From Chryseobacterium sp. 3008163 (GTDB taxonomy: Bacteria > Bacteroidota > Bacteroidia > Flavobacteriales > Weeksellaceae): DNA of 64,000 nucleotides. The stretch's first letter is position 1. Every line of letters starts with the position of its first letter. The notes under the pieces are model-generated. The model saw only the letters and a list, made by a program, of their open reading frames with translations, made no database searches and was not told where the DNA came from. Below, one piece after another: positions 32,199-57,317 of this stretch. The stretch is from assembly GCF_003669035.1 (NCBI RefSeq), contig NZ_CP033070.1, positions 4,278,001-4,342,000 on the forward strand, written 5' to 3'. Position numbers and translations under genes: made by a program.

Positions 32199-32226
32199 AA
32201 CTAACAACCAGAAACTAATAACTAAA
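32199..32226. repeat. Heptanucleotide-phased tract (unit about AACTAAT)
   Basis: Consecutive 7-mers read AACTAAC, AACCAGA, AACTAAT, AACTAAA. It lies between the ends of the convergent RRM and BlaI-type genes. Confidence 0.55.
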
Positions 32227-32229
32227 CTA

Positions 32230-32697
32230 CTAATCTTTTTTCTTCTTCTTTTTCTTATCCTTTCCTTTTTTATCTTTCTTAGGATTCAGTATTTCTTCAG
32301 CATATTCGAGAGTTGGAGTTTTTACTTTTACAGGTTTCATTTCAATTTTAAGATCAAAATATTCTTTAAGATCATTCTGAGATACCAGATTTTCTTTAAA
32401 CAAAAATTCTAAAATTTCTTTGCCAGAATTATTGAAAAAATTCTGCGTGAGTTCTCTCAATATAAATTTTTTATACTCGTCAAAAGGAACGATGACGCTG
32501 TATTTAAAAATACGGCCTTCTTTTTCTGTAGATAAATAACCTTTTTCAACCAATATTTTCAGGTAAGTAGAAACTGTATTTTGATGCGGTTTTGGTTCAG
32601 GATGTTTCTCCATGACATCTTTTAAATAAAAAGAATTTAAGTCCCAAAAAAGCTTCATTAAGTTCTCTTCTGCTGATGTAAGATGATTTATTTTCAT
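32230..32697 (-). CDS. BlaI/MecI/CopY family transcriptional regulator
   Basis: A 155-residue protein with a winged helix in residues 5-80 (LTSAEENLMKLFW, NTVSTYLKILVEKGYL), as in BlaI/MecI repressors, and an unusual Lys-rich tail of about 20 residues. In Bacteroidota these regulators are often paired with a BlaR/M56 peptidase, but none is next to it here. It starts 46 bases after the PAP2-like gene. Confidence 0.85.
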   Translation of the reverse strand: MKINHLTSAEENLMKLFWDLNSFYLKDVMEKHPEPKPHQNTVSTYLKILVEKGYLSTEKEGRIFKYSVIVPFDEYKKFILRELTQNFFNNSGKEILEFLFKENLVSQNDLKEYFDLKIEMKPVKVKTPTLEYAEEILNPKKDKKGKDKKKKKKKD

Positions 32698-32743
32698 ATT
32701 TAAATTTTATAAAATAGTAGGGTATCGCTTTTTCGCAAAGTAT

Positions 32744-33391
32744 TTATTTGATTGTAGTTTCCACAGGAATCACTTCAGTCGGTATATCATTGCGCTGATA
32801 CTTATTGTTGCAATAAAGATAAATAAAAGAAACCAAAACAGCGATGCCTGCTCCCGTAAATACTTCTTTTACGGTATGTCTTTTCAGAATAACTCTCGTA
32901 ATTCCGACCAAAATTGCAATCGCAAGCCATGCAAAACCAATTTTCACATCAAATGCAAAGAATAACGCAGAGACAAATACATTGAATGCAGTATGCATCG
33001 AGCTTTTAATATATAAATTACTGAACTGTAATGCGAACAGAAGAATTAAAATAAACAACATCACGAAATCTATAAAGCCATTCTTAATATAATTGAACGT
33101 CAAATAAGAAACAATACAGACAGCAATGAAAATATACAATGTTTTTCTTTGAACTCTATTTGATACGTCCATATTGGTATATCGACCTGTTTTTACATTC
33201 CAGACAATCCAGATAATTACCGGAAGAATGGTCATCAGTAAAATAGGCAAAAAGTGTGTGAAAGCTTCTTTAAAGGTGTAATTCTGAATACTGAAATACA
33301 CGAAATAGATAACCAAAGAAACTAAAGGATTAAAAAAATCTGAAATAATTCTTGAAACAATGTGTAGTAATGAGGTCTTTTTTTCTTCCAT
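32744..33391 (-). CDS. PAP2-like integral membrane protein
   Basis: A 215-residue protein with about six hydrophobic helices. It has the order of motifs of the PAP2 phosphatase fold, but degenerate: SSMHTAF in place of PSGH, and TRVILKRHTVKEV in place of SR...H...D (the second histidine is kept and the aspartate is Glu). Lipid phosphatase activity is possible but not assured. It is probably cotranscribed with the BlaI-type regulator gene. Confidence 0.65.
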   Translation of the reverse strand: MEEKKTSLLHIVSRIISDFFNPLVSLVIYFVYFSIQNYTFKEAFTHFLPILLMTILPVIIWIVWNVKTGRYTNMDVSNRVQRKTLYIFIAVCIVSYLTFNYIKNGFIDFVMLFILILLFALQFSNLYIKSSMHTAFNVFVSALFFAFDVKIGFAWLAIAILVGITRVILKRHTVKEVFTGAGIAVLVSFIYLYCNNKYQRNDIPTEVIPVETTIK

Positions 33392-33471
33392 ATTGAAGTT
33401 TGTGATGTAAATATAACATTATAACTAAAAAAACAATTGCTCTATATATAATAAAAACAAAGTTTTTTTTA

Positions 33472-33479
33472 TATTTTTG
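33472..33479 (+). promoter_or_regulatory. -7 promoter box of pdhA
   Basis: TATTTTTG matches TAnnTTTG perfectly, 38 bases before the pdhA start. No convincing -33 element was found. Confidence 0.4.
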
Positions 33480-33517
33480 CTCAACTATTTCATAATAAAT
33501 AAGCAAGAAGCTAGCAC

Positions 33518-34519
33518 ATGAAAGAATTTTCTAAAGAGGTATACCTGAAGTGGTATGAAGATATGACAATGTGGAGAAGGTTTGAAGACAAATGCCGTTC
33601 TCTTTATTTAAAACAAAAAATCAGAGGTTTTTTACATTTGTACAACGGTCAGGAAGCTATTCCGGCTGGTTTTACGCATGCAATGGATTTAACTAAAGAC
33701 AGCATGATCACTGCTTACAGATGTCACATTCATCCGATGGCAATGGGAGTAGACCCAAAAAGAATCATGGCAGAACTTTGTGGTAAAGCTACAGGTACTT
33801 CAGGAGGTATGGGTGGATCTATGCACATTTTTAGTAAAGAACACAGATTTTACGGAGGTCATGGTATTGTAGGAGGTCAAATTCCTTTGGGAGCAGGTAT
33901 TGCTTTTGCAGATAAATATTTCGACAGAAAAGCGGTAAACATCTGTTTCTTCGGAGACGGTGCTGCAAGACAAGGTTCTCTTCACGAAACTTTCAACATG
34001 GCAATGAACTGGAAACTTCCGGTAGTATTTGTGGTTGAAAACAATCAATATGCGATGGGAACTTCTGTAAAAAGAACTGCTAATCACGAAGATATCTACA
34101 AACTAGGATTAGGTTACGAAATGCCTTGTTTAGCCGTTGATGCAATGGATCCTGAGAAAGTGGCTGAAGCTGCTTACGAAGCTATTGAAAGAGCTAGAAG
34201 AGGAGACGGACCGACTTTCATTGAAGCAAGAACGTACCGTTTCAGAGGTCACTCAATGTCTGATGCTGAGCCTTACAGATCTAAGGATGAAGTTGCTATT
34301 GCAAAAAAAGACGATCCAATAGAATTAATCAAAGCGAGAATCTTAGAAAACAACTGGGCAACTGAAGAAGAATTGGAAGCTACAGATAACAAATCAAGAG
34401 ACTTTGTAGAAGAGTGCATCGAGTTTATGGAAAATTCTCCATACCCGACCGCAGAAAAAATCTACGAGTATGTTTACGCTCAGGAAGATTATCCATTCTT
34501 AGACAAATTAGAAAACTAA
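33518..34519 (+). CDS. pdhA: Pyruvate dehydrogenase E1 component alpha subunit
   Basis: Thiamine-pyrophosphate-dependent subunit that decarboxylates pyruvate in the pyruvate dehydrogenase complex. The 333-residue protein shows the E1-alpha signatures GGMGGSMHIF, the TPP/Mg motif from GDGAARQGS to VVENN (about 147-176), and YRFRGHSMSDAE, the phosphorylation-loop equivalent. The E2 gene follows after 82 bases; the E1 beta gene that usually accompanies it is not between them or elsewhere in this window. Confidence 0.95.
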   Translation: MKEFSKEVYLKWYEDMTMWRRFEDKCRSLYLKQKIRGFLHLYNGQEAIPAGFTHAMDLTKDSMITAYRCHIHPMAMGVDPKRIMAELCGKATGTSGGMGGSMHIFSKEHRFYGGHGIVGGQIPLGAGIAFADKYFDRKAVNICFFGDGAARQGSLHETFNMAMNWKLPVVFVVENNQYAMGTSVKRTANHEDIYKLGLGYEMPCLAVDAMDPEKVAEAAYEAIERARRGDGPTFIEARTYRFRGHSMSDAEPYRSKDEVAIAKKDDPIELIKARILENNWATEEELEATDNKSRDFVEECIEFMENSPYPTAEKIYEYVYAQEDYPFLDKLEN

Positions 34520-34597
34520 AAATTAATAATTAATTTGATATTTGAATTTGAGGCTATCTAATCTCAAATCTCGAATCTCGAATCTCAAATCAATATA
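34517..34597. repeat. Heptanucleotide-phased intergenic tract between pdhA and pdhC
   Basis: From 34514 onward the sequence splits into consecutive 7-mers: AACTAAA, AATTAAT, AATTAAT, TTGATAT, TTGAATT, TGAGGCT, ATCTAAT, CTCAAAT, CTCGAAT, CTCGAAT, CTCAAAT, CAATATA, reaching five bases before the next ATG. Almost the entire spacer is built this way. Confidence 0.7.
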
Positions 34598-34601
34598 GAT
34601 T

Positions 34602-36218
34602 ATGGCAGAAGTTATTACAATGCCACGTCTTTCCGACACGATGACGGAAGGTAAGGTGGCGAAATGGCATAAAAAAGTAGGAGATAAAATAAAGGAAGGA
34701 GATATTTTAGCTGAAATTGAAACAGATAAAGCGGTTCAGGATTTCGAATCTGAAATTGAAGGAACTCTTTTATTTGTAGGAGTTGAAGAAGGTGCTGCTG
34801 CGGCAGTTGATTCTATTTTAGCAATTATCGGTCAAGAAGGTGAAGATATTTCTTCTTTAAAAGGAGGAAATGCTCCGGCGGCTGAAGGTGCTTCTGAAGA
34901 GAAAAAATCTGAAGAAGAATCTAAAACTGAAAACGAATCTACAAGCGTTGAGCAAACTTCAGCTGAAGTTCCTGCAGGAGTAGAAGTAATTACAATGCCA
35001 AGACTTTCTGATACAATGACAGAAGGTAAGGTAGCTAAATGGCACAAAAACGTTGGAGATACAGTAAAAGAAGGAGACTTACTTGCTGAGATCGAAACAG
35101 ATAAAGCAGTTCAGGATTTTGAATCTGAATTCAATGGAGTTCTTCTAAAACAAGGTGTTGAAGAAGGCGGAGCTGCACCAGTTGACAGTGTTTTGGCAAT
35201 TATCGGCCCTGAAGGAACTGATGTTTCAGGAGTTGGAGCTGCAAAACCGGCAACAAAATCTGAAGACAAACCAGCTGAGCAAAAATCTGCAGCGAAAGCA
35301 GAAGAGAAATCGGTTGCACAAACTGCAAATACTTCTTCATCGGACAGAGTAGCTATTTCTCCTTTAGCTAAAAAAATAGCTCAGGATAAAGGCGTTGACA
35401 TCAACAGTCTTCAAGGTTCTGGTGAAAACGGAAGAATTGTGAAAAAAGATATTGAAAACTATCAGCCTTCACAAAAATCTGAAGCTGCTCCGGCACAAAA
35501 TAATGCTGCTGCTCAGGTTGCTTTAAGCTTTGTACAGGGAGAAGATACAGAAACTCCAAACTCTCAGGTAAGAAATATCATTGCGAAACGTCTTGCTGAA
35601 AGTAAGTTCTCTGCTCCTCACTATTATCTAATGGTTGAAATCAACATGGATAAAGCGATTGAGGCAAGAAAAGAAATCAACTCATTACCAGATACTAAAA
35701 TTTCATTCAACGATATGATTATTAAGGCGACAGCAGTTGCTTTAAGAAAACATCCGCAGGTGAACTCAAGCTGGGCAGGAGATAAAGTAATTCACAGAGG
35801 AAACATCAATGTTGGAGTAGCAGTTGCGATTCCTGACGGATTGGTAGTTCCGGTTCTAAAGAATACAGACCAAATGAATTACACTCAGATTTCTGCTGCT
35901 GTGAAAGATATGGCTGGAAGAGCAAAATCTAAAGGTCTTAAAGCAAACGAAATGGAAGGGTCTACATTCTCTATCTCAAACTTAGGAATGTTCGGAATTG
36001 AAACCTTTACAAGTATTATCAATCAACCAAATGCTGCAATTCTTTCAGTAGGTGCTATTGTTGAGAAACCAATCGTAAAAGATGGTCAAATTGTAGTAGG
36101 GAATCTTATGAAACTTTCATTAGCGTGTGACCACAGAGTAGTTGATGGTGCTACGGGAGCTCAGTTCTTGCAGACATTAAAAACATATTTAGAAAGTCCA
36201 TTAACATTGTTACTGTAA
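34602..36218 (+). CDS. pdhC: Dihydrolipoamide acetyltransferase (pyruvate dehydrogenase E2)
   Basis: Core subunit of the pyruvate dehydrogenase complex, which transfers acetyl groups to CoA. The 538-residue protein has two nearly identical lipoyl domains (residues 1-75 and about 127-202), each with the lipoyl lysine in ETDKAVQ; Ala/Glu/Lys-rich linkers; a peripheral-subunit-binding domain at about 248-285 (ISPLAKKIAQ); and a catalytic domain ending with DHRVVDGATG. It is followed by a terminator. Confidence 0.95.
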   Translation: MAEVITMPRLSDTMTEGKVAKWHKKVGDKIKEGDILAEIETDKAVQDFESEIEGTLLFVGVEEGAAAAVDSILAIIGQEGEDISSLKGGNAPAAEGASEEKKSEEESKTENESTSVEQTSAEVPAGVEVITMPRLSDTMTEGKVAKWHKNVGDTVKEGDLLAEIETDKAVQDFESEFNGVLLKQGVEEGGAAPVDSVLAIIGPEGTDVSGVGAAKPATKSEDKPAEQKSAAKAEEKSVAQTANTSSSDRVAISPLAKKIAQDKGVDINSLQGSGENGRIVKKDIENYQPSQKSEAAPAQNNAAAQVALSFVQGEDTETPNSQVRNIIAKRLAESKFSAPHYYLMVEINMDKAIEARKEINSLPDTKISFNDMIIKATAVALRKHPQVNSSWAGDKVIHRGNINVGVAVAIPDGLVVPVLKNTDQMNYTQISAAVKDMAGRAKSKGLKANEMEGSTFSISNLGMFGIETFTSIINQPNAAILSVGAIVEKPIVKDGQIVVGNLMKLSLACDHRVVDGATGAQFLQTLKTYLESPLTLLL

Positions 36219-36240
36219 TTTTCTTTTTATATTATACTAA

Positions 36241-36269
36241 AAACCTCTCATCTCGAGAGGTTTTTTTGT
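36241..36269 (+). terminator. Terminator of pdhC
   Basis: AAAACCTCTC (36241-36250) pairs with GAGAGGTTTT (36256-36265), followed by a T-run, 23 bases after the stop. Confidence 0.88.
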
Positions 36270-36304
36270 TTTAAATTTTACTTAATCGTTCAATTCTTAA
36301 TTTT

Positions 36305-36360
36305 ACTTCTAACTTCTAACTTCTAACTTCTAACTTCTAACTTCTAACTTCTAACTTCTA
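36305..36360. repeat. Eight exact copies of the heptamer ACTTCTA
   Basis: A perfect microsatellite, followed by one degenerate copy ACTTAAG. A -7-like AATCTTTG lies directly after it at 36368-36375, so the array occupies the -33 region of the next gene's presumed promoter. Confidence 0.95.
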
Positions 36361-36367
36361 ACTTAAG

Positions 36368-36375
36368 AATCTTTG
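36368..36375 (+). promoter_or_regulatory. Candidate -7 box of the GLPGLI gene pair
   Basis: AATCTTTG matches TAnnTTTG except at the first base and lies 41 bases before the start codon. The upstream -33 position falls inside the heptamer array. Confidence 0.35.
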
Positions 36376-36415
36376 CCAATAGAGAATAATATCCTATTTT
36401 AGTGAAAAAATTTAA

Positions 36416-37282
36416 ATGAAGAAAATTATTTTCGGATTGCTTTCTTTTTTAGGCATCGCAACCTACTCCCAAAATCAGCGATTTTCTTATGAATATAAAT
36501 TTGTAAGAGATTCCACAGAAAAAGATAAAGCTGAAACTGAAGTGATGCTTTTAAATGTTTTTTCTAAAGGTTCTCAGTTTTACAGTAAAGATACTTTTGA
36601 TTCTGATTCAATCATTAATGAGGAATTTAAAAAACAGTCTAAAGGTGGAAGTATGGACATAAATTTAACTGGATTTAAGGCAAAAGGAAAAGTGAGATAT
36701 CAAATTGAGAAAAATTATCCTGATTATTCTGTAAACTTTTTCACACAGTTGGGTTCTTCGGAATATATGATCCAAGAATCTAGAAAAATAGATTGGAAAA
36801 TATTGCCTGAAAATGAAAAAGTGGGTGAGTTTAACACTCAGAAAGCAACTTGCAACTATGTCGGTAGAGTTTGGACTGCTTGGTTTACTACAGACATCCC
36901 AATTCAGGATGGGCCACACAAATTTCATGGTTTACCTGGTTTAATTGTAAAATTGGAAGACAAAACAAAATCTCATACTTATGAACTGAAAGGGGTGAGG
37001 AAATTCAGTAATGAAAATGAATGGAAAAGTTTCAAAGACAAAGAAAGGTATGAGCCATTAATTGTTTTAAATGATAAAAAATACAAGAAAGTTTATTTGG
37101 ATAATAGGGCAGATCCTAATAAAGGATTAAGAAGTCTTTTAGCAGAAGGCGGGAAAGTTGAAATGAAAGATGCTTCTGGAAAGATCATGGATACCAATCA
37201 AATAATGAAGGACAGAGAAAAAAAACAGGTTGAAGCAAACAAGAAAAATAATAATCCGCTGGAATTAGACTTATTAAAATAA
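36416..37282 (+). CDS. GLPGLI family exported protein (first paralogue)
   Basis: A 288-residue protein with a signal peptide (to ATYSQ) and the family core GLPGLIVKLEDKTKSHTYELK at about 176 onward, preceded by the usual W-T-A-W-F-T-x-x-I-P-I-Q-D-G-P motif. GLPGLI proteins are secreted or outer-membrane proteins of Bacteroidota with unknown function, often near TonB receptors. It is followed 16 bases later by a close paralogue. Confidence 0.9.
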   Translation: MKKIIFGLLSFLGIATYSQNQRFSYEYKFVRDSTEKDKAETEVMLLNVFSKGSQFYSKDTFDSDSIINEEFKKQSKGGSMDINLTGFKAKGKVRYQIEKNYPDYSVNFFTQLGSSEYMIQESRKIDWKILPENEKVGEFNTQKATCNYVGRVWTAWFTTDIPIQDGPHKFHGLPGLIVKLEDKTKSHTYELKGVRKFSNENEWKSFKDKERYEPLIVLNDKKYKKVYLDNRADPNKGLRSLLAEGGKVEMKDASGKIMDTNQIMKDREKKQVEANKKNNNPLELDLLK

Positions 37283-37298
37283 TTTAGAAATATTTTAA

Positions 37299-38153
37299 AT
37301 GATACAAACGAAAACATTACTAATTGCTATTTTTACATTTTTAAGTCTATATTTTACTGCACAAAGCCAACGATTTGCATACGAATATGTATTCGTAAAA
37401 GACTCTACAAAAATGAATGACAAAGAGTCTGAGCTCATGTATCTTGATGTCTCCAAAAAAGGTTCGAAATTCTTCAGCCAGAAAAGAGAAATAGCAGATT
37501 CTCTACATTTGGAGATTGTAAAAAATCAAAATAAAGATTTTAGCGGAATTGACTATGGATTAGTTGTATATGTAGTTGAAAAATCTTATCCTGATTTTAA
37601 AATAAATTTATTTGATAACCTTGATATGAGTAAATACAAGATTTCTGATAATCGCAAAATGGATTGGAAGATTCTTTCGGAAAAAGAAACAATTGGAGAT
37701 TTAAATGCCCAAAAAGCAACCTGTAATTTTGCCGGAAGAACGTGGACAGCCTGGTTTGTATCTGACATTCCCATTCAGGATGGCCCTTACAAATTTAATG
37801 GTTTGCCTGGATTAATTATTAAAATTGAAGATAAAACTAAATCGCATTCATTTGTTCTGAAAGAAATCAAAAAATTACGGTCTGATCAAGAATGGAAAAG
37901 TGACGGAGAAAAGAAAAGTTTTAATGCCATAATTGCCATAGATCAGGAAAAATACAAGAAACAGTTTAAAGATAACAGAGAAAATCCAACAAAAGGTATG
38001 CGTCAAATGATGTCTGGAGGTAATAAAATAATGATGATAGATGAAAAAGGGAAGCCTTTGGACATTGAGGAAATGATGCGTGACATGGAAAAAAATGCTA
38101 AAGCAAATAATGCTAAGAACAATAATGTTTTGGAACTGGATTTACTACAATAA
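37299..38153 (+). CDS. GLPGLI family exported protein (second paralogue)
   Basis: A 284-residue protein that aligns along its whole length with the preceding gene product (both start QRFAYEY/QRFSYEY and end NNxLELDLLx), so the pair is a tandem duplication. The signal peptide and GLPGLIIKIEDKTKSH core are present. The function is unknown. The downstream region is an insertion-sequence remnant, so no clear terminator is left. Confidence 0.9.
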   Translation: MIQTKTLLIAIFTFLSLYFTAQSQRFAYEYVFVKDSTKMNDKESELMYLDVSKKGSKFFSQKREIADSLHLEIVKNQNKDFSGIDYGLVVYVVEKSYPDFKINLFDNLDMSKYKISDNRKMDWKILSEKETIGDLNAQKATCNFAGRTWTAWFVSDIPIQDGPYKFNGLPGLIIKIEDKTKSHSFVLKEIKKLRSDQEWKSDGEKKSFNAIIAIDQEKYKKQFKDNRENPTKGMRQMMSGGNKIMMIDEKGKPLDIEEMMRDMEKNAKANNAKNNNVLELDLLQ

Positions 38154-38196
38154 AAAACTCCCGAAACTTTAGACTGCCACCAATTGTTAGACAAAA

Positions 38197-38333
38197 TTAA
38201 ACAATATAATTAGATGAAAGAGTTCGGTACTGTATCGGGCTCTTTCCTTTTAAATTTAACCTTATTCTGTCGTTGTTGTAATAAGTGATGTATTGTTTTA
38301 TTTCTTTTCTAAGCTCATCGATTGTTTTAAAAA
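38197..38333 (-). pseudogene. IS3-family transposase OrfB C-terminal fragment
   Basis: The minus strand reads FKTIDELRKEIKQYITYYN, then NDRIRLNLKGKSPIQYRT, to a stop. This is the typical end of IS3/IS150-group OrfB transposases (the YYN...R...L.G.SP..YR pattern). The catalytic core is missing. Confidence 0.8.
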
Positions 38334-38335
38334 CG

Positions 38336-38398
38336 GTCTATAGACAACAATCTTCCCAAAGTATCAATAACAAATAAATTCTTTTTGATACTCCCTGA
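38336..38398 (-). pseudogene. Possible second transposase fragment (IS4/IS5-like)
   Basis: The minus strand encodes SGSIKKNLFVIDTLGRLLSI, which resembles the RKRHxxVDTLGLLL segment of IS5-type DDE transposases. It lies inside the IS3-type terminal repeats, suggesting a mosaic of decayed elements. The match is short. Confidence 0.35.
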
Positions 38399-38539
38399 TG
38401 ACTTATAATTTAAAGCCTGTTCCAAATTTTCTTTTCATAAAAAATGCCCCTAAAAAGTGTCTAACTTTTTTGGGGCAGTCCAGTAAGCTGGGGATTTTCT
38501 GTTGTAAGAATATATATAATTTGATTTGGGCGGTGGTTT

Positions 38540-38962
38540 CTATGCTACTGCTTCGTTTTTAAATATATTCTTCATAGAAACTCCTGTTTCTTTTCCAAAA
38601 AGACAAGAGAATATATTTTGAAATTCATGAATGTACTTGCATTTAATTGTATTTCCATAAATTTTCAAACCTTCAACGATTTTCTTTGAACTTAAATCGA
38701 TATCATACTTGATAAATGATTCTGGTCTTTCGTATCTGATTCTGTGATCTGAACTATAAGTTCTTGAAAACCCAAATTTTACTAACCAATCTTCATTAAT
38801 GCTGATAGGGTTGATAGAATCTGCAGGTACTGCCAAAGATTGATAATCATTTTCAATCTTTACAGAATAATCATTATTCTCATTGTGAAAAATCTCTGTA
38901 ATCGTGAAAATCTGGCCTCTATAATCTACCAGATTTTTAATTTTCAAATCTGTTACTTTCAT
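38540..38962 (-). CDS. Hypothetical protein next to the IS remnant
   Basis: A 140-residue soluble protein. The first 70 residues look like a small beta-rich domain (VDYRGQIFTITEI), followed by INEDWLVKFGF and a C-terminal KYIHEFQNIFSCLFG. Similar sequences occur as uncharacterised proteins on Bacteroidota chromosomes and prophages, where they are usually linked to mobile DNA. No function is recognised. Confidence 0.55.
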   Translation of the reverse strand: MKVTDLKIKNLVDYRGQIFTITEIFHNENNDYSVKIENDYQSLAVPADSINPISINEDWLVKFGFSRTYSSDHRIRYERPESFIKYDIDLSSKKIVEGLKIYGNTIKCKYIHEFQNIFSCLFGKETGVSMKNIFKNEAVA

Positions 38963-39130
38963 AATAATAGTGTGGTTTGATTAATAGTTTGCAAATACTA
39001 TGCCTCGCATTGCTCATGTGGTATGTAATATGATAAATAATTCTAAATTTTAGGTAAATTAGTTGTTAACTAAATTTTCAAACCCAGTTTAGCTTAAAAA
39101 GGTCTTCAATATTCATTAAATCTCAGTTTT

Positions 39131-39835
39131 CTATATCAAATCAGGATTGTTTTCTTCTTTTTTAAATTTATAAAATAAAAAGATATTCCATAGAATCATT
39201 TCGTAACCATAAACGGTGTCTTCGACAGGTATTGTTAAAATTCTTAATCCAATTATTCTCTCAGGATTGTAATTGACAATAGGAGAGTCGAGCCCGGTTC
39301 CTGTGAGGATTCCGTTGACTGCGAGAAAGCCGGGCATCAGTATTAAATAAATAAAGGAAGCTTTACCAATCCATCTTGCTTTTAAAATAAAGCATAGAAT
39401 GAAAAGACTGATCGCTGTGGTGAGAAACGTAACGAAAGGATAAATTTTGTCTTCAAAATGAACCGCTAAACAAAGTAAAATTATAATTGAAACGATTACA
39501 AATATCTTTTCAAGACTTTCTTTCCAATCGAGTTTGAAAAATTTATCTAAACAAAAATAAGTAAACACACATGAGAAAGGAATACAGATAAAAAACATCA
39601 ACTCTTCAATCGGAAGTCCAAACAATCTTTTTCCCATCAGATATCGGTCATTAAACCACCAAACTCCAATATCAGTAAACCAAACATCCCAAGCAATAAA
39701 AAATAAAGCTACTGAAAAAGAAGCCATAATAAACGCTTTAAAATGTTTGTGAAACTTTATTTTCGGATGAAATGAAAATAAAAAACAGATAATCACAGTG
39801 AAAAAATTAATCGCCAAATACGTGTATTGCCACAT
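39131..39835 (-). CDS. crtY: Lycopene cyclase (fused CrtYc-CrtYd type)
   Basis: A 234-residue integral membrane protein with about seven hydrophobic helices, made of two lycopene cyclase domains. Each has the conserved acidic motif: LPIEELMFF in the first half and IPVEDTVYGYEMIL in the second. It closes the ends of lycopene into beta rings to give beta-carotene. It is the last gene of the carotenoid operon and lies two bases after crtZ. Confidence 0.88.
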   Translation of the reverse strand: MWQYTYLAINFFTVIICFLFSFHPKIKFHKHFKAFIMASFSVALFFIAWDVWFTDIGVWWFNDRYLMGKRLFGLPIEELMFFICIPFSCVFTYFCLDKFFKLDWKESLEKIFVIVSIIILLCLAVHFEDKIYPFVTFLTTAISLFILCFILKARWIGKASFIYLILMPGFLAVNGILTGTGLDSPIVNYNPERIIGLRILTIPVEDTVYGYEMILWNIFLFYKFKKEENNPDLI

Positions 39836-39837
39836 GA

Positions 39838-40296: not shown

Positions 40297-40299
40297 TAT

Positions 40300-40767: not shown

Positions 40768-40795
40768 CTTTTTGATTTAAGGTAAATTTTAGATT

Positions 40796-41632: not shown

Positions 41633-41643
41633 AGTATTCTTGG

Positions 41644-43783: not shown

Positions 43784-43805
43784 TTCATTAAATTTAATTG
43801 TTTAT

Positions 43806-48628: not shown

Positions 48629-48632
48629 GGCT

Positions 48633-50336: not shown

Positions 50337-50349
50337 TTTTATATCTTTG
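50322..50349 (+). promoter_or_regulatory. Promoter of the small membrane protein gene
   Basis: TTTG at 50322-50325 and TATCTTTG at 50342-50349, 16 bases apart; the -7 box is a perfect TAnnTTTG. It lies at the very end of dnaX, 40 bases before the start at 50390. Confidence 0.5.
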
Positions 50350-50389
50350 TCAAATATTTGTGCTCAAAAATATTTTTTTGCCAAATTTA

Positions 50390-50565
50390 ATGACTTATAA
50401 AAAACTAGAAATAGACAATTCTTACGATTAAAGTGGAAAAATTATTATTCCCATATCTGTCTAATTTTACACCTGCTAATTTCTTTAGCAGTTATTTTAG
50501 TTTTGCTACTATTTATTATAGAAATTTCAGAAACTATTATCGATTTTATTGGTATAGCTAACTAA
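50390..50565 (+). CDS. Small single-helix membrane protein, frame-broken
   Basis: Too short for standard gene finding. The ATG at 50390 opens MTYKKLEIDN; one extra T in the TT at 50419-50420 brings in FLRLKWKNYYSHICLILHL, a hydrophobic helix of about 25 residues (to LLFIIEI), then SETIIDFIGIAN and a stop at 50563-50565. The restored length is 58 residues: a basic cytoplasmic start and one transmembrane helix. A perfect -7 promoter box lies upstream. No family is recognised. Confidence 0.5.
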
Positions 50566-50716
50566 ATTTCTTTCTCAAAAAATTCGGGAAAATCTATTAT
50601 TTTCCCATCCCCAATTTCATTACATTTTTGTACCCATTTTTTGAAAAGAATTATAAATTAACTTTATAAGGCTTTGTCATTGAATATAAAATTTAAATAA
50701 AATAATACTTTACAAT

Positions 50717-51799
50717 ATGAACTTAATAGATTTAAAAAACGACTGGATCAACGAGTTTCCCCAACCGATGATGATTGCAGGACCATGTAGTGCTGAAAGT
50801 GAAGCTCAAATGCTTGAAACAGCAAAAAGAATTAAAGATACCAATGCTCAGGTTCCAATTTTCCGTGCAGGAATCTGGAAACCGCGTACGAAACCAAATG
50901 GTTTTGAAGGAGTTGGAGTTATTGGATTAAATTGGTTAAAAAAAGTAAAACAAGAATACGGATTTAAAACCGCTACAGAAGTTGCCAATGCGCATCACGT
51001 TGCAGCAGCTTTGGAAGCCGATGTTGATATTCTCTGGATTGGTGCAAGATCAACAGTAAATCCTTTTACTGTTCAGGAAATTGCAGAAGCTTTGAAAGGA
51101 ACTAAGAAAACAGTTTTGGTCAAAAATCCTGTAAATCCGGATCTAGCATTATGGATTGGGGCTTTAGAAAGGCTTTTAGGACAAGATATTAAAAATTTAG
51201 GTGTCATTCACCGTGGTTTTTCAACGTACCAAAAGACAAAATACAGAAATAATCCCAATTGGCAGATTGCTTTAGATTTTAAAAGTCAATTCCCGAATAT
51301 TCCAATGCTCATCGATCCTTCGCATATTTGTGGTAACAGAACCGGTTTGGCGGATATTACGCAGGAAGCTTTAAATGTTGGTTACCAAGGAGCTATCATC
51401 GAATCGCATTCTAATCCGGATGAAGCTTGGAGTGATGCTTCTCAACAGATTACCCCCGAAGTTTTGGCTGAATTGATTTCAAACTTAAAAGTGAGAAATT
51501 CAGGAATAGCTGGTTTCGATAACGAAATGGGAAGACATAGAACATTGATTTCTGATCTTGATTTCCAAATGATAGAACTGCTTTCTCAAAGAATGAAAAT
51601 TTCAGAACAAATAGGAAAGCTGAAAAAAGAAAATGATATCGCCATCTTCCAGCCGGAACGTTGGAAAGTAATCACTGAGTATGCCATCCAAAAGGCAAAA
51701 GAAACAGGAATGTCTCAGGATTTTATTGAAAAGGTTTTCAAAGCGATTCATGAAGAATCTATTGAAAAGCAAAATAATATTATGATCGACAGAAAATAA
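50717..51799 (+). CDS. Bifunctional DAHP synthase / chorismate mutase (type II)
   Basis: A fusion of two shikimate-pathway enzymes in 360 residues. Residues 1-260 are a KDO8P-synthase-like (type I-beta) DAHP synthase with IAGPCSAES, FRAGIWKPRTKP and DPSHICGNR; it condenses erythrose 4-phosphate and phosphoenolpyruvate. Residues about 265-360 are an AroQ-type chorismate mutase (RTLISDLDFQMIELLSQRM, IAIFQPERW), which also acts as a feedback sensor in this fusion type. Common in Bacteroidota. It is followed by rsgA after 105 bases. Confidence 0.93.
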   Translation: MNLIDLKNDWINEFPQPMMIAGPCSAESEAQMLETAKRIKDTNAQVPIFRAGIWKPRTKPNGFEGVGVIGLNWLKKVKQEYGFKTATEVANAHHVAAALEADVDILWIGARSTVNPFTVQEIAEALKGTKKTVLVKNPVNPDLALWIGALERLLGQDIKNLGVIHRGFSTYQKTKYRNNPNWQIALDFKSQFPNIPMLIDPSHICGNRTGLADITQEALNVGYQGAIIESHSNPDEAWSDASQQITPEVLAELISNLKVRNSGIAGFDNEMGRHRTLISDLDFQMIELLSQRMKISEQIGKLKKENDIAIFQPERWKVITEYAIQKAKETGMSQDFIEKVFKAIHEESIEKQNNIMIDRK

Positions 51800-51806
51800 A
51801 AGTAGG

Positions 51807-51890
51807 AAATAGGTCTAAGGATTTAGAATTGAAAATTGCTTCTTAATAGCTCAAACTAAATCCTTTTACCTAAATCCTAATTCCTTATAT
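51807..51890. repeat. Heptanucleotide-phased tract before rsgA
   Basis: In one 7-base frame the spacer reads AAATAGG, TCTAAGG, ATTTAGA, ATTGAAA, ATTGCTT, CTTAATA, GCTCAAA, CTAAATC, CTTTTAC, CTAAATC, CTAATTC, CTTATAT. Neighbouring units are related but the tract is degenerate. It runs straight into the rsgA -7 box. Confidence 0.55.
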
Positions 51891-51893
51891 TTG
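51886..51893 (+). promoter_or_regulatory. -7 promoter box of rsgA
   Basis: TATATTTG matches TAnnTTTG perfectly and ends 11 bases before the rsgA start. The region upstream is the heptamer tract. Confidence 0.5.
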
Positions 51894-51904
51894 CACTCAT
51901 ATAT

Positions 51905-52831
51905 ATGAAAGGAAAAATCATTAAATCTACAGGAAGCTGGTATCAGGTTTTGGAAACAGGAACCGATAAAATTTTTGAGGCGAGAATTCGTGGTAAATTC
52001 AAGCTGATCAAAACCAGACTGACCAATCCTCTTGCTGTGGGTGATTTTGTTGAATTTCAATTGGAACAGGATGATATTGCATGGATTACGAAAATCGATC
52101 CACGTAGAAATTACCTGATCAGGAAAGCCGTTAACCTTTCTAAAGAAGCACACATCATTGCTTCAAACATTGATATAGCTTGTTTTATATTTACCTTAAA
52201 ACATCCTGAAACATCTTTCGGTTTTCTGGACCGTTTCCTTGCTTGTTGTGAAGCTTACAACATCAAACCACTTATTCTTTTCAATAAAATGGATGTTTTG
52301 AATGAGGAAGAAATAGAAGTGGTAAAAGATATTCAGTTTTTGTATCAGGAAATTGGTTATGACAGTTTAGAGATTTCATCTTATTCTAAACTTAATCTGG
52401 AAGGTTTACAAGACCTTCTAAAAGACCAGACTTCTGTATTTTTCGGTCATTCCGGATGTGGTAAATCTACTTTAGTTAACGCATTGCAACCTGATCTAAA
52501 TCTACGTACATCAGAAATTTCAGACACTCATCTTAAAGGTAAACATACAACTACTTTTGCTCAGATGCATTTTTGGCATTTCGGTGGAAATGTAATTGAT
52601 ACTCCCGGTGTGAGGGAGTTTGCAATGATTGATATTGAAAAAGAAGAAGTTCAGCACTATTTTCCTGAAATATTCAGAAAGAGAAAAGAGTGTAAATTTC
52701 ACAACTGTATGCATATCAACGAACCAAAATGTGCCGTTCTTGATTCTTTAGAGACGGGTGAAATTCAACATTCACGATATTCTACGTATATCAAACTGAT
52801 GGAGGAGGCTGAAGAAAATTCTCAAAACTAA
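51905..52831 (+). CDS. rsgA: Ribosome small subunit-dependent GTPase A
   Basis: A circularly permuted GTPase that helps mature the 30S ribosomal subunit. The 308-residue protein has an N-terminal OB fold, then the permuted motifs NKMD (G4), GHSGCGKSTLVNAL (G1) and DTPGVREF (G3), and a C-terminal zinc site (CKFHNCMHINEPKC). Length and order are typical. Confidence 0.95.
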   Translation: MKGKIIKSTGSWYQVLETGTDKIFEARIRGKFKLIKTRLTNPLAVGDFVEFQLEQDDIAWITKIDPRRNYLIRKAVNLSKEAHIIASNIDIACFIFTLKHPETSFGFLDRFLACCEAYNIKPLILFNKMDVLNEEEIEVVKDIQFLYQEIGYDSLEISSYSKLNLEGLQDLLKDQTSVFFGHSGCGKSTLVNALQPDLNLRTSEISDTHLKGKHTTTFAQMHFWHFGGNVIDTPGVREFAMIDIEKEEVQHYFPEIFRKRKECKFHNCMHINEPKCAVLDSLETGEIQHSRYSTYIKLMEEAEENSQN

Positions 52832-52963
52832 ATTTTACTGCTTTAAAAATTCATTGTGAGTTTGCTTTATTGATTCGAATTGAATCGATAATTTATTTGC
52901 GTCTTAAGATTTGTATTTCCTTATTGCGAAATATATAATAAAATCATTGGATTATTATAAATA

Positions 52964-53046
52964 CAAAACCCAGCCGAAGCTGGGTAAAAACTAATAACCA
53001 TGAAAACTCAAATTAAACATGAGAATCGAATTTATAGTTGCAATTT
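52964..53046 (-). ncRNA. Candidate minus-strand small RNA
   Basis: On the minus strand a perfect -7 box TATTTTTG (53053-53060) would start a transcript near 53046. About 60 bases on it reaches a hairpin ACCCAGC-TTCG-GCTGGGT followed by TTTTG, a plausible terminator, giving an RNA of about 80 nt. There is no minus-strand gene nearby that would need this terminator. Confidence 0.3.
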
Positions 53047-53130
53047 GTGTGCCAAAAATAGATGTCATATTTCTTAATAAATGTTATTTTGTGTTAAAAT
53101 TAAATTAAAATTATATTTAGATATTTTTCG

Positions 53131-53138
53131 TAATTTTG
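53131..53138 (+). promoter_or_regulatory. -7 promoter box of ndk
   Basis: TAATTTTG matches TAnnTTTG perfectly, 24 bases before the ndk start codon. Confidence 0.5.
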
Positions 53139-53162
53139 TGCCATTAAAAAATATATACATTT

Positions 53163-53579
53163 ATGTCTAACATTACATTCACTATGATTAAGCCTGATGC
53201 AGTTGCTGATGGGCACATCGGAGCTATTTTAGGGAAAATTTCAGAAGGAGGTTTCAAAATCAAAGCTTTAAAATTAACTCAGCTTACTGTTGCTGATGCT
53301 AAAAAATTCTACGAAGTACATGCTGAAAGACCATTTTATGGAGAATTGGTTGACTTCATGAGTTCAGGACCAATTGTTGCTGCAGTTTTGGAAAAAGATA
53401 ACGCAGTTGAAGATTTCAGAACTTTAATTGGTTCTACAAATCCTGCTGACGCTGCTGAAGGAACTATCAGAAAAATGTTTGCTAGAAGTATCGGAGAGAA
53501 TGCTGTACACGGATCTGATTCTGATGAGAATGCTCTTATCGAAGCACAATTTCATTTTTCAGGAAGAGAGATTTTCTAA
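53163..53579 (+). CDS. ndk: Nucleoside-diphosphate kinase
   Basis: A 138-residue enzyme that balances nucleoside triphosphate pools by phosphate transfer through a histidine. The start [10 protein letters not shown] and the active-site motif NAVHGSDS are plain, and the length is typical. Monocistronic with its own promoter and terminator. Confidence 0.97.
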
Positions 53580-53931
53580 TCAAAACTCTTAAAAATAAAA
53601 AAATCCGGAAATTTTCCGGATTTTTTTGTTTTAAGTAATTAATTGAAATTTTTCTGCCATTTCGTCATTAAAAATATTTCAATCAATCATAATATGATTA
53701 TAGTTTTTAATTAAAATAATAATAAATAATTAAAATTATGTTATCAATTTCGCAAAAATGTTTTGGTATAATTGTTTAGTTTGTGTAGAAACATTGTTAT
53801 TGTGAAAAATTCTTTGTTTTACGGGTGGTCTTAATCTTGAAAAAATCAGAACTTTACATTAGTTAAAACAAGATAAATTAACATCAAAATAGAAACTAAC
53901 AAACCTTAGTGCTTTCAAGCAGTTTTTTGAT
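53580..53931. other. 352-bp convergent intergenic region between ndk and rpe
   Basis: Apart from the ndk terminator, only AT-rich sequence is seen; no gene or repeat. Confidence 0.5.
53603..53627 (+). terminator. Terminator of ndk
   Basis: ATCCGGAA (53603-53610) pairs with TTCCGGAT (53614-53621), flanked by A and T runs, 23 bases after the stop. Confidence 0.88.
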
Positions 53932-54582
53932 TTATACTTTTAAAAGCTCTATTGTTCTTTCCGGACTTTCGGCTGAAAAAACTGCATTGCCTGCAACTAA
54001 AACGTCAGCACCCGCTTCAAACAATTTAGAAGCATTATCTAAATTTACACCGCCGTCAATTTCTATTAAAGCTGTAGAATTATTGCTTAAAATTAAATCT
54101 TTAGCCTCTGCAATCTTCTTATAGGTATTCTCGATAAATTTCTGACCACCAAATCCCGGATTTACACTCATCAATAAAACCAAATCTACATCGGCAATAA
54201 TATCTTCAAGCATTAAAACAGGCGTAGAAGGATTAAGTACAACACCAGCTTTCGCGCCTTTGCTCTGAATTAAATTAATAGTTCTGTGAAGATGTGTACA
54301 CGCTTCGTAATGTATAGAAACTAAATCTGCTCCGTATTCAATGAATTCTTCAACATACTTTTCGGGTTCTAAAATCATTAAATGCACATCTACGAATTTT
54401 TTTGCATGTTGCTGAATGGTTTTCATCACGGGAAAACCAAAAGATATATTGGGAACAAATCTTCCGTCCATCACATCAACATGTAGCCAATCGGCTTGAG
54501 AATTGTTGAGCATTTCGATATCTCTTTGCAGATTCCCGAAGTCTGCGGATAATAGGGAAGGAGCGATGAGTTTAGTTTTCAT
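53932..54582 (-). CDS. rpe: Ribulose-phosphate 3-epimerase
   Basis: A 216-residue TIM-barrel enzyme that interconverts ribulose 5-phosphate and xylulose 5-phosphate in the pentose phosphate pathway. Motifs: LLSADFGNL, HVDVMDGRFVPN, VHLMI, SVNPGFGGQKF and EIDGGV, all with their metal and phosphate ligands. It is 24 bases after the small membrane protein gene. Confidence 0.96.
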   Translation of the reverse strand: MKTKLIAPSLLSADFGNLQRDIEMLNNSQADWLHVDVMDGRFVPNISFGFPVMKTIQQHAKKFVDVHLMILEPEKYVEEFIEYGADLVSIHYEACTHLHRTINLIQSKGAKAGVVLNPSTPVLMLEDIIADVDLVLLMSVNPGFGGQKFIENTYKKIAEAKDLILSNNSTALIEIDGGVNLDNASKLFEAGADVLVAGNAVFSAESPERTIELLKV

Positions 54583-54606
54583 TTTTACTTATATTTCTTT
54601 TACTTT

Positions 54607-54906
54607 TTAAAATGGATTGACAAATAGAAAATAATACGAAAATATGCCTAAGATCAATATCGCTTCTATGATTGCTAGCTTAATATTATTTATTTTAATT
54701 ACCAATAATCTATCAATGACAAACAATATTAGTGGAACAATACTTATAATTAATAGTGTTTCAAGAATCATATTGTAGGCAGATCCTATTTTTGGAGGAT
54801 TAAAAATTTTATATATCATTAAAAATAATACGTAGGCGAAAAATAATGTCGCTATAATTGACACAAAAGTTGGCTTTCGTATTAAATGACTGAAAAAACT
54901 TTTCAT
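54607..54906 (-). CDS. Small hypothetical membrane protein
   Basis: A 99-residue protein with three hydrophobic helices (about 14-34, 47-67 and 75-95) and short basic ends. No family is recognised. It lies one base after the M42 peptidase gene, so the two are cotranscribed, with rpe following. Confidence 0.65.
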   Translation of the reverse strand: MKSFFSHLIRKPTFVSIIATLFFAYVLFLMIYKIFNPPKIGSAYNMILETLLIISIVPLILFVIDRLLVIKINNIKLAIIEAILILGIFSYYFLFVNPF

Positions 54907-54907
54907 C

Positions 54908-55984
54908 TTAATGATACTTCAGTTTCATTTCCGGTGTAATCTTCAATAATGTTTCGTAGATTAACTGAATCACATTTCCTACATCTTCTTTTGAAACCAT
55001 TTCTACTGTAGTATGCATGTATCTTAAAGGCAATGAAATCAATGCGCTTGGTACACCTCCGTTCGAATGTGCAAACGCATCAGTATCTGTTCCTGTAGCT
55101 CTGCTTGCAGCAGCTCTTTGGAAAGGGATTTCTTTCTTTTTTGCAGTATCAATAATCAATTCTCTGATCACATGGTGAACGCTTGGTGCAAAGAAAACTA
55201 CCGGGCCATCACCACATTTCTGATCGCCTTCTTTTTTCTTCTCAATCATTGGAGTTGTCGTATCATGCGTAACATCTGTTACAATAGCAATATTTGGTTT
55301 GATGGTATCAGCGATCATATCTGCACCATACAAGCCAACCTCTTCCTGAACGGAATTGGTAATATATAAACCAAACGGAAGTTGTTTTTTATTCTCTTTT
55401 AAAAGTCTTGCAACTTCAGCAATCATAAACCCTCCGATTCTGTTATCCAAAGCTCTGCAGACAAAATAACGGTCATTCATTTCGAAAAACTCGTCAGGAT
55501 AGGTAATCATACATCCAACGAAAATTCCTAAATCTTCAACTTCCTGTTTTGTAGTTGCACCGCAATCAATGAAAATGTTTTCAATTTTTGGTGTCGGTTC
55601 GTTTTGGTTTGCGCTTCTTGTGTGAATAGCAGGCCATCCGAAAACTCCTTTTACAATTCCTTTATCACCATGAATATGGACGATTTTTGAAGGGGCAATC
55701 GTTTGATCAGAACCTCCGTTTCTGATAACATAAATCAATCCGTCATCTGTAATATAATTGACATACCAAGAAATTTCATCAGCGTGAGCTTCAATCACCA
55801 CTTTGAATTCGGCTTCAGGATTAATGATTCCGTAGCAGGTTCCGTAATGATCTACCTCGATTTTATCAACGTATGGAGTGATGTAATCCATCCAGACTTC
55901 CTGACCTCTGTGTTCGTATCCGGTTGGTGATGAAGTGTTTAAATATTTTTCTAAAAATTTCAAAGATTTCTTCTCGAATTTCAT
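54908..55984 (-). CDS. M42 family metallopeptidase
   Basis: A 358-residue di-metal aminopeptidase. Metal ligands and catalytic residues fall in AHADEISW (His-x-Asp), CRALDNRIGG, VQEEVGLYGA (the catalytic Glu-Glu), VTDVTHD and the C-terminal LRYMHTTVEMV. M42 peptidases trim short peptides; some were once called endoglucanase M or glutamyl aminopeptidase. Cytoplasmic, no signal peptide. Confidence 0.93.
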   Translation of the reverse strand: MKFEKKSLKFLEKYLNTSSPTGYEHRGQEVWMDYITPYVDKIEVDHYGTCYGIINPEAEFKVVIEAHADEISWYVNYITDDGLIYVIRNGGSDQTIAPSKIVHIHGDKGIVKGVFGWPAIHTRSANQNEPTPKIENIFIDCGATTKQEVEDLGIFVGCMITYPDEFFEMNDRYFVCRALDNRIGGFMIAEVARLLKENKKQLPFGLYITNSVQEEVGLYGADMIADTIKPNIAIVTDVTHDTTTPMIEKKKEGDQKCGDGPVVFFAPSVHHVIRELIIDTAKKKEIPFQRAAASRATGTDTDAFAHSNGGVPSALISLPLRYMHTTVEMVSKEDVGNVIQLIYETLLKITPEMKLKYH

Positions 55985-56036
55985 ATTTGAGGAATGATTT
56001 TTGTAGTTAAGTTTCGTTATAATACGTGTAAAAATA

Positions 56037-56744
56037 ATGAAATTTCATAAAATCACCTTTCTTTTTCTGTTCTTTTTTGGTGTTGCTGCATTCGGGCAGC
56101 AAAGGGATTCTATTATTGCTAAACCATTGAATCAATATCCACCAGAATTATTAAAAACTGATGAATTTGGCAATAAATATTATTATGATGAAAGTCAGAA
56201 GGCTAAAATCTATGAGATTAACGGTGAGACTGTAGTGGTGATGGATGAATTGGTTTTGCTTAATAAACCTAAGTTTAATAATCAATTGGATAAGAATTAT
56301 TATTTCTTCCTAAATAAAAAATTATATAGAGTTTATCCATTATTCCTAACGGCATTGCAGCAATACAGAGATATTCAGGTTGAAATGAAGATTATGGATA
56401 CCGCAGCTAAAAGGAAATATATCAAAGACCGTCAAAATATGCTTGCAGATCAATATGAAAAGCAACTAAGAGATTTAACGACAACAGAAGGTCAGGTTTT
56501 TGCAAAATTAATGAACAGAGCAACCGGCAAAAATGTTTTTGAAATCATTAAAGAAATGCGTGGTGGCTGGAGTGCTTTCTGGTGGAATGTAAAAGGTAAA
56601 TTGGCAGATATCGATTTAAAAGACCGATACAATCCACATAAAAATAGAACCGATGAATTTTTAGAATCTCTATTGCAATCCAATTGGAATTCCGGTTATT
56701 TGCAACCTTATCCCGGAGCTAGAGATTTTAAAGTTTCAAAATAA
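56037..56744 (+). CDS. DUF4294 domain-containing exported protein
   Basis: A 235-residue protein with a signal peptide (to AAFGQ) and the DUF4294 domain: VVVMDELVLL, LDKNYYFFLNKKLYRVYP and GWSAFWWNVKGKLADID. Restricted to Bacteroidota, with no known function. It is divergent from the M42 gene (52 bases between starts). Confidence 0.88.
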   Translation: MKFHKITFLFLFFFGVAAFGQQRDSIIAKPLNQYPPELLKTDEFGNKYYYDESQKAKIYEINGETVVVMDELVLLNKPKFNNQLDKNYYFFLNKKLYRVYPLFLTALQQYRDIQVEMKIMDTAAKRKYIKDRQNMLADQYEKQLRDLTTTEGQVFAKLMNRATGKNVFEIIKEMRGGWSAFWWNVKGKLADIDLKDRYNPHKNRTDEFLESLLQSNWNSGYLQPYPGARDFKVSK

Positions 56745-56745
56745 T

Positions 56746-56780
56746 AAAAATTCCTGTAAAAATATTTTACAGGAATTTTT
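56746..56780. terminator. Bidirectional terminator between DUF4294 and Nudix genes
   Basis: Bases 56746-56761 and 56765-56780 are exact inverted copies (16-bp stem, three-base loop) with flanking A and T runs. It overlaps the end of the Nudix gene. Confidence 0.88.
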
Positions 56781-57183
56781 CTTTTAATTTTTCAAAAACA
56801 ATTTTATCAACCGGTAAGGTAAAAGGATTTACTTCTGTATCTATAGGAAGCCATTCTGTTTTTTCTATGCAAGGGTCGAGAATCAGAAAATCTTCTTCAT
56901 TGGTAATTTTCACCATATAATATATAGTAAGAAGTTGCTCATTTTCTCTGAATCTGGAAACTAAGAAATCTTCCTGCGTGTAAAGATGTTCTACGATATC
57001 TATTTTTACGTTGAGTTCTTCATCAAACTCACGGTGAAGACATTCTGTTAATCCTTCTCCGAATTCCAATCCGCCACCAGGAAACTTTAATAAAGGTTGT
57101 CCTGCATATTCTTCAAAAAGCGTGAGAACTTTATTGTCTTTTACTGCACAGGCATAAACTCTCACGTTAATCTTATCAATCAT
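56767..57183 (-). CDS. NUDIX hydrolase
   Basis: A 138-residue protein with a complete Nudix box, GGGLEFGEGLTECLHREFDEEL, at about residues 36-57, where the Glu residues bind the metal. These enzymes hydrolyse nucleoside-diphosphate-linked compounds; the substrate is not predictable here. Its last codons form part of the bidirectional terminator. Confidence 0.9.
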   Translation of the reverse strand: MIDKINVRVYACAVKDNKVLTLFEEYAGQPLLKFPGGGLEFGEGLTECLHREFDEELNVKIDIVEHLYTQEDFLVSRFRENEQLLTIYYMVKITNEEDFLILDPCIEKTEWLPIDTEVNPFTLPVDKIVFEKLKEKFL

Positions 57184-57217
57184 ATGTAATATTTTGTAAA
57201 GCTAAAATAAGGAAAAT

Positions 57218-57317
57218 AGTTAAAAGTTAAGAGTTATCAATTATGAATTATGAGTTTTCAAAATATGTAATTTTTATTTAGATTACCAACTATAACTAAT
57301 AAGACATCATTCATCAC
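57218..57317. repeat. Heptanucleotide-phased tract between Nudix and mnmD genes
   Basis: The 7-mers AGTTAAA, AGTTAAG, AGTTATC, AATTATG, AATTATG, AGTTTTC cover 57218-57259. In the same phase the region continues with weaker units, including AACTATA, ACTAATA, ATTCATC, ACCTATA and ACTTTAT, up to the mnmD stop. Confidence 0.6.

Follow-up and report, generated by a model that had tools for sequence, protein, structure and literature searches.

The 64,000-nucleotide stretch analysed here (the window) covers positions 4,278,001 to 4,342,000 of the single-contig, 4.56 Mb genome of Chryseobacterium sp. 3008163 (NZ_CP033070.1). It carries several intergenic spacers built from tandem 7-bp units, among them the spacer between pdhA and aceF, which in related species is occupied by one of three alternative predicted hairpins with a period of 7 or 8 bases. 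An earlier note on this DNA had listed five heptad spacers and proposed that 7-base units are created or expanded locally. Each spacer was evaluated by its best local run of lag-7 identity against 2000 dinucleotide shuffles of the same spacer (floor p=0.0005). Tandem units exceeded chance in four of the five: 34520–34601, 36219–36415 and 57184–57317 each reached the floor of the test, and 51800–51904 gave a moderate signal (lag-7 p=0.005; p=0.02 over all lags 4–15). The AACTAAT tract claimed at 32199–32226 (no strand assigned) was indistinguishable from chance, its spacer (32119–32229) giving p=0.10 at lag 7 and p=0.06 over all lags.

The site behind aceF holds a perfect tandem array of 8.6 exact copies of ACTTCTA (36305–36364, no strand assigned), bordered by a terminator-like hairpin on one side and the next gene on the other. 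The pdhA-aceF spacer (34520–34601, + strand), which had been read as heptameric from stop to start codon, is built differently. Clean heptads (CTCAAAT/CTCGAAT, + strand) are found only at 34557–34591, a tract that contains the right arm (34562–34583) of a predicted hairpin, and the left part (34533–34553, + strand) is its inverted partner, the 5′ arm. Minimum free energy (MFE) of the spacer was -15.5 kcal/mol, a value reached by 3 of 200 shuffles. Upstream of the rsgA-like gene (51800–51904, + strand), weak heptads lie inside a strong hairpin (inverted repeat p=0.0033; MFE -27.2 kcal/mol, 0 of 200 shuffles as good). Just downstream of this hairpin, as positioned by eye, is TATATTTG (51886–51893, + strand), a candidate promoter element matching TAnnTTTG, the -7 promoter motif of Bacteroidetes. 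The spacer upstream of the NUDIX-like gene contains degenerate heptads AGTTAAA/AGTTATC/AATTATG (57215–57256, no strand assigned; lag test) and folds no better than chance, 161 of 200 shuffles being at least as good. By the inverted-repeat and folding tests some of the tracts are complementary hairpin arms, which the note had missed. Some heptad tracts finish near start codons, and no Rfam family scored above threshold in the window.

To place these tracts in the genome, 20-kb stretches were taken at 60 evenly spaced points (1.2 Mb in all, or 26% of the genome) and pooled with the window, giving a sample of 1.26 Mb. In its 865 intergenic segments (164 kb), local runs of lag identity with a score of ≥10 were counted and compared with dinucleotide shuffles. 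At lag 7, 23 runs were observed against 4.8 expected from ten shuffles, at lag 6 there were 6 against 6.8, and at lag 8 there were 15 against 5.3; with five shuffles the expectations for the same observed runs at periods 7, 6 and 8 were 6.2, 5.2 and 3.8. The period-7 excess over 4.8 corresponds to a Poisson p of ~2e-9, which is optimistic because paralogous rRNA copies were counted separately. Period-7 runs were denser in short spacers, with 24 in 54.6 kb of spacers of ≤200 bp and 8 in 102 kb of longer ones. Exact arrays of at least three copies (units of 6–12 bp) were likewise concentrated: 171.5 kb of intergenic sequence held five with 7-bp units (two of them paralogous rRNA flanks), one with a 6-bp unit and none of 8–12 bp, and 1.09 Mb of coding sequence held one with a 6-bp unit and none of 7–12 bp. 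Exact 7-bp arrays in the sample are thus intergenic only.

The three strongest lag-8 runs were tetranucleotide arrays, and degenerate octads such as CAATGTAA/CAATCTAA were present too. Octad tracts of the CAATGTAA/CAATCTAA type were also seen at L052:16224-16294, L052:1798-1866, L052:15911-15946 and L074:10920-10954 (numbered loci are given with the letter L), several of them paired with ATTGTTAC-type sequence.

For comparison with other taxa, stretches of ten genomes each from the genus, the order and the class or phylum were used, samples that are small (31–44 kb of spacer each). Period 7 gave 8 runs against 1.7 in the genus, 8 against 0.4 in the order and 3 against 0.3 in the class/phylum set, and the corresponding counts for period 8 were 1 against 0.9, 8 against 0.4 and 0 against 0.3. 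A further panel comprised 80 related 12-kb loci around pdhA-aceF; these are orthologous, so period runs among them are not independent. With the pdhA-aceF spacer removed, the panel contained four exact arrays with 7-bp, three with 8-bp and one with 6-bp units.

Among named relatives, Chryseobacterium aahli (L075) and Chryseobacterium sp. JAH (L076) are closest by PdhA identity, each at 100%, and by pdhA and aceF DNA the nearest is L075, at 98%. Comparison of the same spacers in relatives, suggested in the note as a check, did reveal copy-number change at the 36305 array, with 8.6 copies in the window, 4.4 in L075 and 1.6 in L076 between alignable flanks. At the equivalent site L101, whose flanks are also alignable, carries about six copies of ACTCCTA, a different unit throughout; a change shared by every copy implies that all of them derive from a single altered unit. 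L092 is without the array (by eye). Paralogous sites within the window's genome behave similarly, TTGATGG being present in 3, 5, 5 and 4 copies in the flanks of four of the five rRNA spacers, at a distance of ~4 kb. Three of these four flanks are identical over the next 400 bp and the fourth is not. Copy number therefore varies by whole units in both the 36305 series and the rRNA flanks, as in heptanucleotide repeats. The heptads inside the rRNA internal spacers, by contrast, are identical across all five copies. Octads are alike in this respect: AGAGTATT occurs in 6.6 copies in L125 (L125:1436-1614) and about once in its near relative L126. This array sits in a two-armed spacer, and both strains are named C. 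jejuense.

That the loci share no sequence is mostly correct. Two further units formed exact 7-bp arrays in the sample, TTAACAC at one locus and TTGATGG at the rRNA flanks. The statement does not apply to ACTTCTA-type triplets, which recur at unrelated loci. Cyanobacterial short tandemly repeated repetitive (STRR) sequences are heptamer repeats with one unit at many loci; measured against that trait, ACTTCTA-type triplets (≤2 mismatches) were found at the window site, at one further locus (C1:1,296,504-1,296,538) and in five rRNA spacers, and the reversed pattern gave 0 matches. The rRNA internal spacer at L010 (~1450-1740) itself has two similar heptad elements, each adjoining a tRNA gene, with AGTTGTC and CTAACTT units. 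The unit TTGTCAG is also a cyanobacterial STRR unit.

Hairpins were then compared across relatives. At the NUDIX site heptad hairpins occur in relatives such as L206 and L212 (own-arm scores 28 and 24), while in the near relative L186 heptads are not clearly visible by eye. L159, L170 and L173, again by eye, have octad units in two arms at the rsgA site. When the left arm of a spacer was matched with its own right arm and with the right arms of other species, the own arm fitted better in 29/29 spacers at rsgA, 18/27 at NUDIX and 36/36 at pdhA-aceF (drawn from 73). The mean own-arm excess, compared with shuffled spacers taken through the same steps, was 5.0 against 1.5 at rsgA (29 spacers), 2.95 against 1.6 at NUDIX (27) and 3.3 against 1.3 at pdhA-aceF (30 of 73). 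Every hairpin scoring at least 14 in three panels carried G in its 5′ arm and C in its 3′ arm (27/27, 5/5 and 67/67). As a general rule this was dropped, given that the 7-, 8- and 9-periodic hairpins of the genome sample divide into 8 G-left and 7 C-left. Within the heptad class of the pdhA-aceF spacer, left and right unit counts obtained by regular expression were not significantly correlated (rho 0.28, p 0.18, n=25); visual inspection suggests four left units in each of the four spacers that have five right units (L083, L125, L137, L143).

The pdhA-aceF spacers of the window and the 80 related loci were classified by regular expressions, with L079, L140, L151 and L152 relabelled by eye. The heptad class, to which the window belongs, comprised 24 spacers (plus L079 by eye), and two 8-base classes, oct1 and oct2, comprised 24 and 25 (the latter plus L140, L151 and L152 by eye). 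One of the three thus occupies the spacer in 77/81 loci; L133 and L147 have other sequences, and L149 and L153 have spacers of only 16 bp and 4 bp. The three classes occur across the genus, and the heptad class is also found in Epilithonimonas and Soonwooa. On a quick tree of flanking gene DNA, in which 22 of 76 inner branches were poorly supported and L109 and L146 were left out, class changed 22 times among 75 loci, the minimum being 2 and shuffled labels giving a mean of 35.7 (lowest 30 in 200 draws). Without the labels set by eye 21 changes were counted on 71 loci, and with ‘other’ and ‘none’ as additional labels 25 among 79.

Between relatives of different class, compared in ten chosen pairs (two rows being used twice), spacer divergence was 41–56%, with 0–10% in the last 50 bp of pdhA, 0–14% in the preceding 50 bp and 0–2% in the first 50 bp of aceF; five chosen same-class pairs had spacer divergence of 0–6%. 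Highly divergent spacers at one gene pair, with a class incongruent with the gene tree, are what characterises switched intergenic regions, and both traits are seen at pdhA-aceF. Linkage between class and flanking sites (77 loci) amounted to an excess of 0.035–0.061 bits at all distances, with its maximum, 0.061 (0.389 at one site), over the final 100 bp of pdhA, values of 0.043–0.052 farther away and no rise on the aceF side. No long linked tract is thus seen, and a short one may exist on the pdhA side. An attempt to generalise spacer switching by a global identity cut-off failed: all 106 close-pair pdhA-aceF comparisons lay at ≥0.62, because unrelated AT-rich spacers align at that level, and 7/63 other spacer comparisons fell below 0.62.

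We consider it probable that the tracts arise by local duplication and deletion of whole units, through slippage or an equivalent process that would favour 7–8 bp in short spacers, with 7 foremost in this genome, and that the hairpin classes at pdhA-aceF are inherited and move between species. An array would start from a local seed, its copies would be drawn from one or few units and so become homogenised, and substitution would then decay it. Local seeds, homogenisation and decay would together produce a shared period with mostly unshared sequence. The process may act mainly in spacers of ≤200 bp. Where units come to lie in two complementary arms the spacer would form a hairpin, and periodic arms might allow pairing to survive the gain or loss of a unit. 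The pdhA-aceF hairpin would be handed down in one of three alternative forms, and these would pass from species to species, possibly by recombination.

Several results weigh against this explanation or narrow it. The note had named the lack of an excess of period 7 over periods 6 and 8 as what would refute it; in the genome sample such an excess was obtained by local runs and not by mean lag identity, where lag 6 (z 11.4 in all intergenic DNA, 6.2 in spacers of ≤200 bp) is as high as lag 7 (z 9.1 and 6.6), so that plain autocorrelation does not single out 7. Period 6 gave no excess of runs despite this raised identity. The idea of a process specific to 7-base units was not borne out, as period 8 behaves likewise and equals or exceeds period 7 in frequency in the 80-relative panel, with 22 runs against 3.4 for period 8 and 13 against 4.8 for period 7 outside the pdhA-aceF spacer. 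The order sample was also raised at period 6 (5 against 0.5) and period 9 (5 against 1.1). Near the period-7 tracts of the genome sample the own inverted partner was better in 17/32 cases (p=0.23; 6/12 at a higher threshold), and near period-8 tracts in 9/13 (p=0.17); most period-7 tracts are without a nearby inverted partner, which makes the hairpin a feature of some sites only. The strand with the stabler RNA differs between panels, the sense strand being more stable in 16/24 oct1, 21/29 rsgA, 4/24 heptad, 8/25 oct2 and 7/27 NUDIX spacers, which gives no firm ground for an RNA function in the sense transcript. Inheritance, not fresh creation, explains the pdhA-aceF tract; local expansion, supported by the whole-unit differences at the 36305 array and the rRNA flanks, does not account for it. 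Slippage itself is deduced from sequence differences between species and between paralogues.

Selection might instead act primarily on intergenic RNA hairpins, for mRNA stability, processing or uncoupling, with the period as a by-product of hairpin lengthening. Folding of the pdhA-aceF spacers agrees with this, being better than in shuffles in three unrelated classes (median z -3.2, -2.8 and -2.4 for 24, 24 and 25 spacers), as does the superiority of own over swapped arms in every rsgA spacer, above the shuffled control. Most changes in the predicted heptad and oct1 stems preserve pairing, mainly through G-U, the structure having been chosen by the program on the same alignment, and two-sided changes are few (1/19 pairs in heptad, 1/23 in oct1; oct2 has only 6 consensus pairs, 3 of them two-sided). 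The oct1 alignment folds far worse in antisense than in sense (-0.65 against -12.34 kcal/mol), and no strand preference is consistent across panels. Near same-class pairs diverge less in the spacer than at pdhA third positions (0.021 against 0.083, 0.052 against 0.132, 0.118 against 0.202), but distant pairs diverge nearly equally (0.282 against 0.316, 0.406 against 0.424); the third-position bin 0.6–0.8 was not used, as its members look like loci with the pdhA end read one codon off. Own arms were no better than swapped ones within the heptad (13/24) and oct1 (10/24) classes (oct2 20/25), and L149 and L153 have hardly any spacer. Inverted partners are also lacking at most period-7 tracts of the genome sample. 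Hairpin selection as the primary cause is considered unlikely, though the most credible of the alternatives. Slightly less credence is given to a further proposal for pdhA-aceF, advanced tentatively: that three functionally equivalent predicted hairpins, one with 7-base and two with 8-base units, persist in the spacer as a trans-species polymorphism, that a hairpin is needed there and is swapped near the stop and start codons, and that periodic arms survive slippage, so that the period would be selected and not only a mutational footprint.

A dispersed mobile palindrome of the repetitive extragenic palindromic (REP/REPIN) or miniature inverted-repeat transposable element (MITE) type, inserted at these spacers, would account for the palindromic anatomy at some sites, other palindromic families exist in the genome, and the very short spacers of L149 (16 bp) and L153 (4 bp) could be its empty sites. 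However, a search of the 1.26 Mb sample with an nhmmer profile for each pdhA-aceF class turned up no second strong copy (best other E=0.15). High-copy, near-identical REP/REPIN-like palindromes of these classes were not found there, in agreement with the note's view of the tracts as something other than a dispersed repeat. Outside pdhA-aceF in the 80 relatives' loci, four matches were better (E 0.00015–0.0064) and proved to be other heptad arrays, the remaining ones being weak (E 0.097–0.98). A whole-genome search with PF01797 alone found no intact REP-associated Y1 transposase, its two matches being one with two internal stops and one 77-aa open frame. With the same spacer filled by one of three classes in nearly all loci, insertion appears very improbable. 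The arrays could also be binding sites for a factor that reads heptads, similar to the post-transcriptional regulator proposed to bind TAACTGA repeats in Beggiatoaceae (MacGregor, PMC4679880). Tracts ending near start codons and the recurring ACTTCTA-type unit would suit such a factor, but units vary from locus to locus, and from species to species at a single locus, and period 8 replaces period 7 at the same site; we regard this as improbable, if less so than insertion. Chance or base composition stands for the 32199–32226 tract alone and is rejected for the set as a whole, for which it has a negligible probability in view of the run excess over dinucleotide shuffles and the restriction of exact 7-bp arrays to intergenic DNA.

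Other repeats were noticed in passing. An intergenic palindromic family with a 9-base period, ATCTGCNNA, with ends TCTCGC...GCGAGA, occurs in the window at 25152-25235, 27014-27134 and 59151-59458, and at L039:17447-17505 and L032:15089-15338. A larger palindromic family of 120–160 bp, carrying AACCATTAAG towards one end and CTTAATGGTT towards the opposite one, was seen at L032:6910-7049, L037:5115-5238, L041:16161-16318 and L073:9780-9906, and a perfect 20-bp inverted repeat, TTTGACTTTGAGAGTTTCAG, with a 30-base loop lies at 23310-23379 of the window. A GTTA array has 9, 3 and 12 copies in different rRNA-operon flanks of the same genome (L274, L275, L277; also L040:8429 and L063:18606), and an AGAT array of 18 copies is present at L021:11694. 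Matches to Flavo-1 RNA (RF01705) flank an rRNA operon on both sides (L040:7780-7866 and 14818-14908).

Among the papers listed by the literature searches, no account of heptad repeats in Chryseobacterium was found, and it appears new that 7- and 8-base hairpins replace one another at a single conserved spacer among members of a genus, heptamer repeats and spacer switching each being known. The pdhA-aceF spacer offers a natural experiment, with three unrelated hairpins and two periods at one conserved gene pair, differing between close relatives. Many sequenced species, a series of orthologous arrays and rRNA flanks that differ by heptads provide a system for studying mutation rate by unit length. 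Elizabethkingia anophelis belongs to the same family as Chryseobacterium. TAACTGA and other heptamer direct repeats are described from Beggiatoaceae, Cyanobacteria and Bacteroidetes, including E. anophelis NUHP1 (MacGregor 2015, PMC4679880). Those repeats are, like ours, intergenic heptamer arrays in Bacteroidetes, and near relatives may be without them; they are mainly one fixed heptamer, whereas Chryseobacterium has many units per genome and hairpin arms.

Long repeats of 7 bp were the most abundant category in most repeat-rich genomes according to Mrazek et al. 2007 (as cited in PMC4679880; their heptanucleotide long simple sequence repeats are also cited in PMC4692102). To explain why bacterial tandem repeats favour 7 bp, the 2007 study put forward, as a proposal, a slippage origin tied to a 7-nt polymerase contact (as cited in PMC4679880). 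To these repeats the Chryseobacterium tracts add degenerate units, period 8 and, at some sites, complementary arms. Heptamer repeats are also described in Nostoc and Xanthomonas (PMC4692102), and in the P6b element of the Nostoc tRNA-Leu intron degenerate heptanucleotides form a hairpin whose copy number varies (PMC3488679). Pairing of degenerate heptads and variable copy number are common to both cases, but P6b lies in intron RNA, while the Chryseobacterium hairpins lie in protein-gene spacers, where the same site can also hold an 8-base class. Switching of intergenic regions, or horizontal regulatory transfer, has been described in E. coli and S. aureus (PMC5890482), and the E. coli regions cited there resemble the pdhA-aceF spacer in having divergent alternatives at one gene pair that are incongruent with the gene tree. 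Unlike those regions, the Chryseobacterium alternatives are all 7- or 8-base hairpins, occur genus-wide and lie between two genes of the same pathway on one strand.

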